A DNA stretch of 64,000 bases from Phycisphaerae bacterium (lineage in GTDB: Bacteria > Planctomycetota > Phycisphaerae > Phycisphaerales > UBA1924), in contig JAUHXM010000004.1 in assembly GCA_030426605.1 (NCBI GenBank), positions 1 to 64,000 on the forward strand, in the 5' to 3' direction. The translations under genes were made by a program, and so were the position numbers. A model generated the notes under the pieces. The model was not told the origin of the DNA and did no database searches. It saw only the letters and a program-made list of their open reading frames with translations. This document shows, piece by piece, positions 35,815 through 41,064 of this stretch. Within the stretch, counting starts at the first letter, position 1, and every line of letters begins with the position of its first letter.

Positions 35815-36300
35815 ATGAGTGAACCCACCGACGCACAACCCAACCCGACGTCCGGCGACCAGATGATCGCCCAGGCCCGCGCCTCGCGCGTCCGATCGCC
35901 CGAGCAGCACCAGGCCGCCCGAGCGTTCGCGGTCGAGTGCGCCCAGTCGCTGCGCGACGACAAGTGCGAGCATGTCGTGATCCTGGACGTGTCAAAGGTC
36001 TCGCAGGTGACCGAGTTCGTGGTCGTGGGATCGGGCACGAGCGAGCGGCAGATGCGGGCGGCCCTCTCAAACATCAGCGAATGGGGCGACGAGCGCGGGT
36101 TCCGGACGTTCGGATCACAGGGCGATGAACGCGGCACCTGGCTGCTCGCGGACTTCGTGGACGTTGTCGTGCACGTGTTCGAGCCCAACACGCGGGCGCA
36201 CTACGACCTGGAGATGCTCTGGGGCGACACGCCGAGGGTGGACGTGCCCGACGGGCCCGGGCCCTGGGCGAAGCGAGCCAAGGGCGGGACGTCGGCGTGA
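35815..36300 (+). CDS. rsfS: Ribosomal silencing factor RsfS
   Basis: RsfS (YbeB/DUF143) binds L14 and blocks subunit joining under starvation. The 161-residue protein matches: DDKCEHVVILDVSKVSQVTE, FVVVGSGTSERQMRAALSNI, WLLADFVDVVVHVFEPNTRA and YDLEMLWGDTPRV. A 30-residue N-terminal extension precedes the domain. The usual neighbour nadD is absent. Its stop overlaps the GTG of aroB. Confidence 0.94.
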   Translation: MSEPTDAQPNPTSGDQMIAQARASRVRSPEQHQAARAFAVECAQSLRDDKCEHVVILDVSKVSQVTEFVVVGSGTSERQMRAALSNISEWGDERGFRTFGSQGDERGTWLLADFVDVVVHVFEPNTRAHYDLEMLWGDTPRVDVPDGPGPWAKRAKGGTSA

Positions 36301-37463
36301 GCGAGTCGGTGCGTGTGAAGCTCGGCGAGCGCGGGTACGACGTCGTCGTCGGGCCCGGGGCACTCGCGGAGTTGGGCGCACGCACGCGGGGGTCCGTGGG
36401 TGACGGTGCCGGGCGCGCGTTCGTGGTCATCGATGCGGGCGTGCCCGAGTCGGGCGTGACGGCGGCAACGGGATCGCTGAAGGCCGCAGGCTTTGAGCTT
36501 CGGACGCACGCGTTCGATCCGACGGAACGCATCAAATCGATCGATACCGCCACGAGGATCCTCGAGCACCTCGCGGCGACCGGGCAGGACCGCTCCGAGC
36601 CCGTGGTCGCGCTTGGGGGCGGGATCGTGGGCGATGTCGCGGGGTTCGTCGCGGCGACCTATCGGCGCGGCGTGCCGGTCATCCAGTGCCCCACCACCCT
36701 CCTCGCGATGGTGGACGCGTCTGTCGGCGGCAAGACGGGGGTGAACCTCGAACTCCCCGGGGCCAAGCTGCTCAAGAACATGGTCGGGTCGTTCCACCAG
36801 CCCGGTTGCGTCGTCGCGGACGTCTCGGTTCTGAACTCCCTCGCACCGAGGCACGTGCGGGCGGGATTCGCCGAGTGCATCAAGCACGCGATGATCGCGC
36901 AGAGCGTCTCCGGCGTGGACCTGATGGGGTGGCTCGAAGCGAACCTGGACGCGGCGCTCGCGGGCGATCCGGGTGTGCTGAGCGAGTTGGTGCGCCGGAA
37001 TGTGGCGATCAAGGCGGACGCCGTGGTCGCCGACGAGCGGGAGACGGCCCCCAGCACCGTCGGCGGGCGGGCGTTGCTGAATCTCGGGCACACCTTCGGG
37101 CACGCGATCGAGACGCTCGACGGGATCACGCCCGACGCGTCGGACCCGTCGCTCGCGCCCTTGCACCACGGGGAGGCGGTCGGGCTCGGGCTCATCGCGG
37201 CTGGCGCGTGCTCACGAGCCCTGGGGATGGTGGACGACGCGTGGGTCGCGCGCGTTCGGGCGGTCATCGACCGGGTCGGGCTGCCCACGGCGGTCGGCGG
37301 GCTGCCCGGCGATGACGAGCTCATCGAACGGATGGGGCACGACAAGAAGGTCCGGGCGGGCGTGCTGCGGCTGGTCCTGCCCGAGGGCGAGGGACGGTCG
37401 CGGGTCGTCGACGACCCGGACCGGGCGGCGGTCGTCGCGGGGCTCGGCGCGATCCGGGCCTGA
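36297..37463 (+). CDS. aroB: 3-dehydroquinate synthase
   Basis: AroB converts DAHP to 3-dehydroquinate in the shikimate pathway, using NAD and a divalent metal. The 388-residue protein has VALGGGIVGDVAGFVAATYR, VPVIQCPTTLLAMVDASVGG, KTGVNLELPGAKN-like loop text (residues 145-156) and the metal ligands in RETAPSTVGGRALLNLGHTF and GHAIE and HHGEAVGLGL. Start is GTG, coupled to rsfS (GTGA). Confidence 0.95.
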   Translation: MSESVRVKLGERGYDVVVGPGALAELGARTRGSVGDGAGRAFVVIDAGVPESGVTAATGSLKAAGFELRTHAFDPTERIKSIDTATRILEHLAATGQDRSEPVVALGGGIVGDVAGFVAATYRRGVPVIQCPTTLLAMVDASVGGKTGVNLELPGAKLLKNMVGSFHQPGCVVADVSVLNSLAPRHVRAGFAECIKHAMIAQSVSGVDLMGWLEANLDAALAGDPGVLSELVRRNVAIKADAVVADERETAPSTVGGRALLNLGHTFGHAIETLDGITPDASDPSLAPLHHGEAVGLGLIAAGACSRALGMVDDAWVARVRAVIDRVGLPTAVGGLPGDDELIERMGHDKKVRAGVLRLVLPEGEGRSRVVDDPDRAAVVAGLGAIRA

Positions 37464-37614: not shown

Positions 37615-39414
37615 ATGCGCACGATCGCGATCATCAATCAGAAGGGCGGGTGTGGGAAGACCACGACCGCGATCAACCTGTCCGCTGTCTTCGCGCGTAA
37701 GGGCTTCCGCACGCTGCTGGTGGACATGGACCCGCAGGGGCACTGCGCCGCGGGTTTGGGGATCCCCGAGTCGTCGATCGAGCGGGACGTGACGGACGTG
37801 CTGCTGACGCCCGATTCGCGTCCGCTGGACGCGGACCGCGTCGTGTGGCGCGTGACGCGCGGGCTCGACCTGGTGCCGAGTCGGATGCGGCTGGCGGGCC
37901 TGGAAGCGAGCCGTGGCGGGCTGGCGAGCCTGCCGGAGAAGGAACACAGGCTGGCGCGAGCGATCGCCCGCCTCAACGAAACGACGGGCCCCGAGCCCCT
38001 GCCCAGGCCAGAGCCCGGCGAGGAGCCCAAGCCCGGGCGGTACGACGTGTGCCTGATCGATTGCCCGCCTTCGATCGGGCTGCTGACGTTCAACGCGCTG
38101 GCGGCGGCACGCGAGATCCTGGTGCCGGTCGAGACGAGCTACTTCTCGCTCCAGGGCGCGACGAAGCAGGTGTCCACGGTCAAGTCGATCGCGCGGCGGC
38201 TGGGCATTCGGATCCGCCCGCACGTGCTGGCGACGATCCACGACGGGTCGTTGCCGCTGGCGAAGGACCTGCTGCGTGAGCTCAAGGATCGGTTCGGGTC
38301 CACGGTGATCCCGTCGGTGATCCGGCAGGACCCGGTCTTGAAGGAAGCGGCGTCGTTCGGGCGTCCCGTGATCGACCACGCGCCAGAAGCACCCTCGGCG
38401 GAGGACTACCTGTCGCTGTGCGAGTGGCTGATCGAGCACGCGAACATCGAGCGCGGCGATCTGGTGGACGAGCCGGATTCGGCGCCCGTCGAGGTGCTCG
38501 CTCCCGAGCCCCGGGGGCCCGAGGTGGTGACGGTCTCGGACCCCACACCCGACGCGACCCCTACGGACCCGGCCCCATCGCGGCTGGCGAGCCGACTCGA
38601 GGAACTCTCGCGTCGGGCTCGGGCGATGCAGACGCCTCCGCGGGCGGTGAGGTCGGTCCCCACGCCGAGCGTGGACTCGGCTGCGCCGGGGGCCTCTCCC
38701 GTCATGCTCGTGCAGGGGCCGTCGGATCCGTCGGTGCTCCCCGCGGTGCTGCCCGGGCGGGCGCCAATCCGTCCCGTCGCGGAGATCGTGACGCCTGAGC
38801 CAGCCGAGATTGCCAGGGTCGTGCACGACGCTGCGGAGCCTGCGGAGTTGCCGATCGTCGAGACGCGTTCACGGACGTTCCCGTCGGCGCCTTCGGCGCG
38901 GCGCGTGAGCCCGCTGCCCGAGCCGCCGTACGTGCCCAAGCCAGAGCCCGAGCCAGAGCCCGAGATGCGGGCGCTGATCCAGGCGGCGACCGCGATGGCG
39001 CCCTCCCCGACCGCGACTGAGACGGTGCCCAAGCCCAGCTTACGTGCGTCGTTGGGCAAGCCTGTCGTGCTGGAGCTCGTCGAGACCGAGCCCGTCGAGG
39101 TGCTGGATTCGGTGCGTCGTCTCTTTGGGTGCCGGGCGACGGCGAAGGGGGCGCTCTTCGTTCAGCCGGCGACGCTGGGCACGCGGGTCCAGATCGCGGG
39201 CGAGTTCAACGGGTGGCGGCCCGAGCGGGCGCCGATGGTCCGCAACGAGGGGCTGGGCGTGTTCGAGCTGCGGCTGGACCTGCCGCCTGGGGCGTACCGG
39301 TACCGCCTGGTGATCGACGGTCGTTGGTGCACGGATGCGCACAACCCGGAGCGCGTGTGGAACGCGTTCGGTGAGGCGGACAACCTGCTGCGGGTGCCGC
39401 GCCGATCGGCGTGA
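37615..39414 (+). CDS. ParA/Soj-type ATPase fused to a C-terminal CBM48/AMPK glycogen-binding-like domain
   Basis: A 599-residue protein. Residues 1-275 form a ParA ATPase: deviant Walker A NQKGGCGKTTTAINL, LVDMDPQGHCAAG and Walker B YDVCLIDCPPSIGLLTFNAL. About 230 residues of low-complexity Pro/Glu/Ala linker follow (for example PYVPKPEPEPEPEMR). Residues ~505-595 look like a carbohydrate-binding module 48 / AMPK-beta fold: GTRVQIAGEFNGWRPERAPM, FELRLDLPPGAYRYRLVIDG and DNLLRVP. ParA ATPases position DNA or protein cargo; CBM48 domains bind alpha-glucans such as glycogen. The combination suggests ATP-driven placement of a glucan-linked structure, which is inference. No parB follows. Confidence 0.8.
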   Translation: MRTIAIINQKGGCGKTTTAINLSAVFARKGFRTLLVDMDPQGHCAAGLGIPESSIERDVTDVLLTPDSRPLDADRVVWRVTRGLDLVPSRMRLAGLEASRGGLASLPEKEHRLARAIARLNETTGPEPLPRPEPGEEPKPGRYDVCLIDCPPSIGLLTFNALAAAREILVPVETSYFSLQGATKQVSTVKSIARRLGIRIRPHVLATIHDGSLPLAKDLLRELKDRFGSTVIPSVIRQDPVLKEAASFGRPVIDHAPEAPSAEDYLSLCEWLIEHANIERGDLVDEPDSAPVEVLAPEPRGPEVVTVSDPTPDATPTDPAPSRLASRLEELSRRARAMQTPPRAVRSVPTPSVDSAAPGASPVMLVQGPSDPSVLPAVLPGRAPIRPVAEIVTPEPAEIARVVHDAAEPAELPIVETRSRTFPSAPSARRVSPLPEPPYVPKPEPEPEPEMRALIQAATAMAPSPTATETVPKPSLRASLGKPVVLELVETEPVEVLDSVRRLFGCRATAKGALFVQPATLGTRVQIAGEFNGWRPERAPMVRNEGLGVFELRLDLPPGAYRYRLVIDGRWCTDAHNPERVWNAFGEADNLLRVPRRSA

Positions 39415-39474: not shown

Positions 39475-41064
39475 ATGGATGAGCGAACCGGCAATTCTGA
39501 TCATCATCGCGCGTCGGGGTTCCCGAGGCTGAGCGGGCAGGGTCCCGACGGCGGGGAGTATGACGCGCTCGCAGAACTTTTCCTGGGTGACCCCGAGCTT
39601 GGGCCGAGCCCGGCGACCGGTGGGCGCGGGCTGCGGCCCGAATCGCCGCGGGTGGTCGCCAAGCCCGAGCCCGTGACGGAGGGCGGGCCCGCGCCCAAGC
39701 ACGTCGCGGAGGTCGAGCCCGCGACGCGGCGCGTCGAGGCGGTGCTGCTCGGGCATCTGCCCGTGCGGGCGTCGATCTGGGTGCGGCAGTACGCGAACGC
39801 GGTCGGGACGACCCTCAACCGCCCGGTGGGGCTGGTGCGGATGGCGTCGGACGCGTGCAGCGTGGAGCTGATCGGGCCCGGCGCGGAGCGTGTGCCGCTC
39901 GAGGATGCGCTGCCCGCCGACAGCATCGAGGACGCCGTGCGGTCGGTCTCGGCGCTGGCGGACCGGTGGATCATCCGCGTGGACGAGGTGGACGAGGAAT
40001 CGCTCGCGGAGTCGTCGGCGATCGAAGAGGTCACGATCCTCACGGGCTCGGACGAGGCGGCGGTCGTCGCGTCGTACCGGCTGGTGAAGTCCCTCGCGGC
40101 GACGTGGGACCGCGTGTTCGGCACCGAGGGCGGGCCCGAGCTCGGGCTTGCGATCATGGGGTCGAGCGGTGAGCAGGCGCTGGCGGCGGGCGAGAAGCTT
40201 GAGCGGGCGGCGGGGTCGTTCCTGAACCGACCGGTGCGTGTGACGGCACGGGTGCCCAAGGTCGGTGTGTCGTCGGCCGCGACGATCTACCGCGGGTCGG
40301 ACGTGATCGATTTCGAGACCGTGATCGAGGCGATCCGATCGGTCGAGCCGGCGCCGCTGCGCCTGACCGACGAAGCGGAGCGGGTGCTTGACGAGGGCGA
40401 GCCCGTCGAAGCGATCGAGCCCGTCATCGAGGACGCGGAAGAAGAGATCGTCTTCGAGGCGGAAGCCGTCGAGGCGACGGAGCCTGTGCGGGACTCGGTT
40501 GCGGCGATCGAGTCCGAGGGTCGCGACGAGGAAGAGACCAAGACCGAGACACCGGAGCCGGCGGACACCGCTGGGCCCGGAGCGCCGGCGGCGACGCCGG
40601 AGGAGACGACGATGACGCCCCCCGAGCAGCCGATGATCGTGACGCGGCACGTGCCGGACATCGCGCCCAAGCGGATCGAGCCGGCGATCCGCCCGGTGAC
40701 GCCCGCGCCCGCGGCGCTGATCGAGGGGTTGGGTGTGCTCGAGTCCGAGTGCCCGTACGCCACGGGCGTGACGCTCGCGGCGGACGAGCTCGGGGCGCTG
40801 CACCTGATCGCGGACGACGCGGACGGCTCAGACGAAGCGGTGCGCCAGCTGACCGCCGCCGCGACGTGGGCTTCGGCGCACGGGAAGCTGCTGCGCAAGG
40901 CCGAGCCGTCGCTCGGCGATGCCGGCCGCGAGCCGGTGCGGCACCTTCTCACGAACGACGCGAAACGCGTGCGCAACCTGCTGGACACGGACCTGAAGGT
41001 GCACCTCGTGACCGAGGTGTCGCTGGGCGGGCAGCGCGGGCGCGTCGCGATCGAGATCAACTGA
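39475..41064 (+). CDS. Large acidic protein, possibly a degenerate MinD/FlhG-like partner of the ParA fusion
   Basis: A 529-residue protein of unknown family. The middle (about residues 160-265) resembles the second half of MinD/FlhG: EVTILTGSDEAAVVASYRLV parallels the TTPEPTAITDAYALIK stretch, LGLAIMGSSGEQALAAGEKL parallels the NMV-S-EEA strand and helix, and NRPVRVTARVPKV the final strand. No Walker A is present, so it cannot bind ATP in the usual way. An acidic linker (~285-420) and a separate C-terminal alpha/beta domain (~430-529) follow. It lies 60 bases after the ParA fusion with GGAGG upstream, so the two probably work together. Homology is my inference from pattern. Confidence 0.5.
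   Translation: MDERTGNSDHHRASGFPRLSGQGPDGGEYDALAELFLGDPELGPSPATGGRGLRPESPRVVAKPEPVTEGGPAPKHVAEVEPATRRVEAVLLGHLPVRASIWVRQYANAVGTTLNRPVGLVRMASDACSVELIGPGAERVPLEDALPADSIEDAVRSVSALADRWIIRVDEVDEESLAESSAIEEVTILTGSDEAAVVASYRLVKSLAATWDRVFGTEGGPELGLAIMGSSGEQALAAGEKLERAAGSFLNRPVRVTARVPKVGVSSAATIYRGSDVIDFETVIEAIRSVEPAPLRLTDEAERVLDEGEPVEAIEPVIEDAEEEIVFEAEAVEATEPVRDSVAAIESEGRDEEETKTETPEPADTAGPGAPAATPEETTMTPPEQPMIVTRHVPDIAPKRIEPAIRPVTPAPAALIEGLGVLESECPYATGVTLAADELGALHLIADDADGSDEAVRQLTAAATWASAHGKLLRKAEPSLGDAGREPVRHLLTNDAKRVRNLLDTDLKVHLVTEVSLGGQRGRVAIEIN

Follow-up and report, generated by a model that had tools for sequence, protein, structure and literature searches.

A Soj-like ParA ATPase fused to an AMPK-beta-type CBM48 domain in Phycisphaerae

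The window, the whole 64,000-nucleotide stretch of Phycisphaerae DNA analysed here, carries a gene that joins a ParA ATPase to a carbohydrate-binding module of family 48. This ParA-CBM48 fusion is real and ancient, and apparently undescribed so far; among the results listed by our literature search, with most subscription journals outside its reach, there was no paper on such a protein. From its sequence and predicted structure, the product is a Soj-like ATPase followed by a long flexible linker and a CBM48 with a conserved putative contact face, and in Phycisphaerales it is accompanied by a partner gene. The features on which the analysis draws are as follows.

35815..36300, + strand: rsfS, ribosomal silencing factor (Pfam; upstream in 49/80 family loci)
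36297..37463, + strand: aroB, 3-dehydroquinate synthase (Pfam; upstream in 67/80 family loci)
37615-39414, + strand: parA-CBM fusion gene, an open reading frame of 599 aa
37615..38454, + strand: ParA/Soj ATPase domain, residues 1-280 (Pfam, Soj sequence and structure matches)
38455..39105, + strand: disordered Pro/Glu-rich linker, residues 281-497 (low pLDDT)
38593..38631, + strand: short predicted helix in the linker, residues 327-339 (AlphaFold, orthologue consensus)
39106..39411, + strand: AMPK-beta-type CBM48, residues 498-599, core 522-595 (Pfam, PDB sequence matches, model)
39475..41064, + strand: partner gene, 529 aa, just downstream of parA in 76/80 family loci

A longer, mechanically called reading frame starts at 37312 and overlaps aroB; the start used in orthologues is the MRTIAIINQKGG methionine. 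GC3 in the fusion gene is 0.86–0.89 and steady across the linker (0.86), and dN/dS against a same-genus copy is 0.18 for ParA, 0.39 for the linker and 0.31 for the CBM, showing that the fusion is a single coding sequence under constraint. A chance or frameshift joining of ParA and CBM is ruled out by these measures and by conservation across many genomes. A recent origin from a mobile element or plasmid was also rejected: matches to plasmid records all fell short of 80% query coverage. Scanning for promoters and terminators gave nothing.

The sequence-only reading had described the N-terminal part as a Soj-type ParA with a deviant Walker A motif, and this was upheld. Pfam matched it to AAA_31 (E = 3.9e-39) and CbiA (E = 4.7e-17), its closest PDB sequence is Thermus thermophilus Soj (1wcv, E = 4.2e-41), and its AlphaFold model aligned to Soj structures with Z of 34–36 and 32–41% identity over the aligned residues. 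The deviant Walker A, KGGCGKTT, occupies residues 10–17, with D37 and D39 in Walker A' and D149 in Walker B; across 70 orthologues KGGxGKTT and the three aspartates are invariant. The AlphaFold models took 56 to 70 related sequences as their input, with no further homologues, and residue-by-residue correspondences rest on MAFFT. In fold and size the protein agrees with the Soj/ParA chromosome-segregation ATPases of T. thermophilus and Helicobacter pylori, and it has their deviant Walker A motif and catalytic aspartates. Unlike them, it adds a linker and a CBM, and its gene does not have the parB that adjoins parA in ParABS systems: a Pfam scan of the neighbours found no ParB. The genomes also keep a separate Soj-like paralogue.

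The DNA-binding positions of Soj vary among the fusion proteins. In Bacillus subtilis Soj, the R189E substitution at the first DNA-binding arginine eliminates DNA binding (PMC10120649). In an alignment of the window protein with T. thermophilus Soj, S212 and Q238 stand where Soj has its two DNA-binding arginines, with R237 adjoining the latter. The second position, the arginine of IPRN in Soj and likewise a DNA-binding residue, is mostly F, Y or R; the first is R in families f5 and f7 and in part of the order. Since the two arginines are not retained together, nucleoid binding by the fusion ParA cannot be assumed, and positioning of cargo on the nucleoid stays unproven. Among the family's Soj-like paralogues (L004, L215–L224), the first arginine is replaced by Q, S, T, N or V and the second is kept; a simple search for ParB motifs downstream of such paralogues gave a match at just two of the loci examined.

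AlphaFold2 predicts two confident domains separated by a low-confidence linker of ~215 residues with short helices. This stretch, rich in proline and glutamate, corresponds to the proline-rich linker already noticed in the sequence. Its predicted helix reads SRAAELAxRAxxL in many orthologues and is retained by several copies that lack the CBM; in three such copies (L067, L095 and L103) the helix motif, RADE..LR...M, forms the extreme C-terminus.

For the C-terminal domain, a profile search and structure prediction both upheld the proposed AMPK-beta/CBM48 identity. AMPK1_CBM (PF16561) matched residues 522–595 with E = 2.6e-11 and 44.0 bits against a cut-off of 26.8, and the CBM_48 profile of Pfam scored barely above its cut-off. 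Among PDB sequences, the C-terminus matched AMPK beta1 (1z0n, 1.6e-8) and the SEX4/DSP4 glucan phosphatases (4.9e-7 and 6.8e-7), and the modelled domain has a pLDDT of ~97. Because the PDB-wide fold comparison concerned mainly the ParA domain, the CBM fold assignment rests on these sequence matches and on the confident model. Mutation of W100, K126, W133, L146 or T148 in AMPK beta1 in each case lowered glycogen binding (PMC2642990). The window counterparts of W100/K126/W133/L146/T148/N150 are W534/R564/W571/F585/E587/D589. Of these AMPK residues, N150 is a glucan contact too.

When 61 family CBMs were aligned to AMPK beta1, W100 was found in 61/61, a count that is partly by construction since the domains had initially been selected by an FNxW-like pattern. 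R or K occupies the K126 position in 60/61, W133 is kept in 59/61, an aromatic stands at the L146 position in 53/61, and N150 is kept in 52/61, the window protein having D where most have N. The aromatic contact residues expected from the sequence are therefore present, in the model as well as in the alignment. T148 is the exception: its position, which is no condition of Pfam membership, holds E in 39/61 and G in 12/61. Branching enzymes, too, often have FNxW, so W100 alone is weak evidence; W133, R126 and N150 carry more weight as indicators of a sugar site. The known AMPK-beta1 glucan-contact residues are largely kept, and binding of some alpha-glucan or maltooligosaccharide by the fusion CBM is plausible. 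The domain resembles the AMPK beta CBM48 in its family, PF16561, and in the residues W100, K/R126, W133 and N150; it differs from it in the usual E or G at T148 and in being attached to a ParA ATPase and not to a kinase-scaffold region. Small stand-alone AMPK1_CBM proteins also occur in some genomes (G037:C1:2749190-2749375, with similar ORFs of ~130 aa elsewhere).

A survey of homologues recovered the same fusion widely. Each of the 100 genomes in the window's family has a ParA match, which in a few is the Soj-like paralogue only. Full-length orthologues came from 77 genomes, the window included, and 69 of them keep the CBM. By Pfam scan, PF16561 was found in 69/70 aligned orthologues; seven further full-length orthologues, six of them Pfam-scanned, are without the CBM. 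Other families of the order and of the class Phycisphaerae carry the fusion too, and four members scanned from them contain PF16561, and the named records in the genome scan are mostly metagenome-assembled genomes of Phycisphaerales, Phycisphaeraceae and Phycisphaerae. A tree of 62 ParA domains splits the fusion orthologues from the Soj paralogues with SH-aLRT support of 100. The CBM label needs six changes on this tree, a quick search drawn with midpoint rooting on which gain and loss counts are approximate, and one gain followed by about five independent losses would explain the pattern. The CBM was not seen as a separate gene in the CBM-less genomes G025, G034, G085, G038, G045 and G317; G068, G017 and G008 have PF16561 matches elsewhere in the genome. 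As the CBM was lost repeatedly while ParA and the partner stayed, it must be dispensable for some functions of the pair.

The order rsfS-aroB-parA is widely kept in the family (L036–L114), linking this ParA to housekeeping genes and not to glucan genes; none of the conserved neighbours in the 80 family loci is a glucan (glg) gene. The partner protein has no Pfam or NCBIfam match. AlphaFold gives it an N-terminal helix (DALAELFLGD in the window, DALADLFLGD in most relatives), an FlhG/MinD-like domain, a disordered linker and a confident C-terminal alpha/beta domain. Its nearest folds are FlhG and FleN: for the middle domain the best Foldseek match was FlhG (4rz2, E = 1.6e-7), which VIA-align superposed with Z of 11.8 and rmsd of 4.6 over 166 residues. 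The partner shares this fold with the MinD-like ATPases FlhG and FleN, but it has no P-loop, a conserved GHLPV standing at that site, and it possesses the conserved N-terminal helix and an additional C-terminal domain. It is present in most of the order and weakly detected in f5; searches of f7 did not find it, and there the fusion occurs alone.

These observations bear on whether ParA and its P-loop-less, FlhG-like partner form a pair that regulates some process of the cell surface, of division or of the flagellum, the CBM merely modulating it according to nutrient state. Family ParA copies without the CBM still have the partner, the partner's fold points the same way, and the setting, with the housekeeping genes rsfS and aroB on the upstream side and the partner following, would suit such a pair. 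However, f7 carries the fusion without any partner, implying that acquisition of the CBM preceded the pairing or was independent of it, and no conserved flagellar or division gene stood out within ~5 kb in the 80 family loci. We regard this explanation as unlikely.

The glucan genes of the host genomes bear on the CBM ligand. The sequence-only reading had proposed a positioning system for glycogen or glucan-coated bodies; in its specific form, ParA would space glycogen granules on the nucleoid with the CBM48 gripping the granule. The domain logic and the conserved contact residues favour this, as do GlgB over cut-off in 23/100 family genomes and the alpha-glucan phosphorylase family in 72/100, the latter a sign that many of these genomes handle alpha-glucans. 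Against it, the glycogen synthase profile GlgA (TIGR02095) was over cut-off in 0/100 family genomes and 0/17 further Phycisphaerae (0/117 in total), and the Corynebacterium-type GlgA (TIGR02149) in 0/100 family genomes. The identical search detected GlgA in 10/10 other planctomycetes, our positive control, and none of those ten had a CBM-containing ParA match. CBM presence showed no association with GlgB (p = 1.0) or with phosphorylase (p = 0.42) across 77 genomes, a test of little power given only eight CBM-less genomes. With the missing glg neighbours and the unconserved DNA-binding arginine pair, this makes granule spacing on the nucleoid very unlikely. The general ligand is not the canonical glycogen that GlgA makes, and glycogen is unlikely as a general cargo; positioning of glycogen granules is possible in the GlgB-bearing minority and unlikely as the general function.

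In fifteen CBM-bearing genomes, among them the single-contig genome G037, no match to GlgB or to alpha-glucan phosphorylase passed the cut-off, so that a source of alpha-glucan is not evident there. Weaker GH13 matches exist in four of them (G059 and G073 above 200 bits, G039 and G096 above 100 bits), leaving a smaller wholly empty set of about 11, to which G037 belongs. All these presences were scored at fixed cut-offs in partly incomplete genomes, and they cover other glucan routes (GlgE, GT4, GH57) only in part. Such genomes lend weight to a protein-protein role, in which the CBM48 fold would be an adaptor to an enzyme, membrane or division component and not a sugar binder; so does the finding that AMPK1_CBM is usually the one domain of its kind that these genomes have over cut-off. 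Nevertheless, the AMPK contacts W100, R126, W133, the aromatic at 146 and N150 rank among the best-conserved positions, and we consider a purely protein-binding adaptor a possibility to be taken seriously, albeit a rather doubtful one.

Our tentative reading, which we favour while rating it slightly less likely than not, is that the fusion is a class-wide Phycisphaerae ParA acting as an ATP-switched adaptor or sensor for an alpha-glucan-like ligand bound in cis, with the partner as its regulator in Phycisphaerales. Against it stand the fifteen CBM-bearing genomes with no evident alpha-glucan source, the repeated CBM losses, the usual E or G at T148 together with the window's D at N150, the Soj arginines not being retained together, and the solitary fusion in f7. 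By analogy with other ParA proteins, the ATPase would cycle between an ATP-bound dimer and a monomer, and the CBM would bind an alpha-1,4-glucan or maltooligosaccharide. The CBM might tether the ATPase to some body or enzyme that bears glucan; alternatively, it might sense its ligand and alter the ATPase, comparable to the AMPK beta CBM on its kinase. The P-loop-less partner could occupy the regulator or effector place held elsewhere by ParB, MinE or McdB. A version in which the CBM48 enables the ParA to position, segregate or sense an oligosaccharide or an alpha-glucan body other than glycogen, under the control in Phycisphaerales of an FlhG-fold protein without an ATP site and with the sugar as the cargo signal, seems to us rather doubtful. 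The logic proposed to be shared with McdA/McdB and other ParA cargo-positioning systems is that of a ParA-type ATPase coupled to a non-DNA cargo module. In contrast to McdA/McdB, the fusion has its cargo module in cis and predicted to bind carbohydrate, the neighbour is FlhG-like, and nucleoid binding is unproven.

Known ParA cargoes are DNA and protein bodies, and fusion to a sugar module would add carbohydrate to them, or else a nutrient-gated ParA switch. The partner stands for a family so far without annotation, whose MinD-like fold is degenerate. Altogether, the fusion offers a concrete and testable entry to the little-known cell biology of Phycisphaerae.
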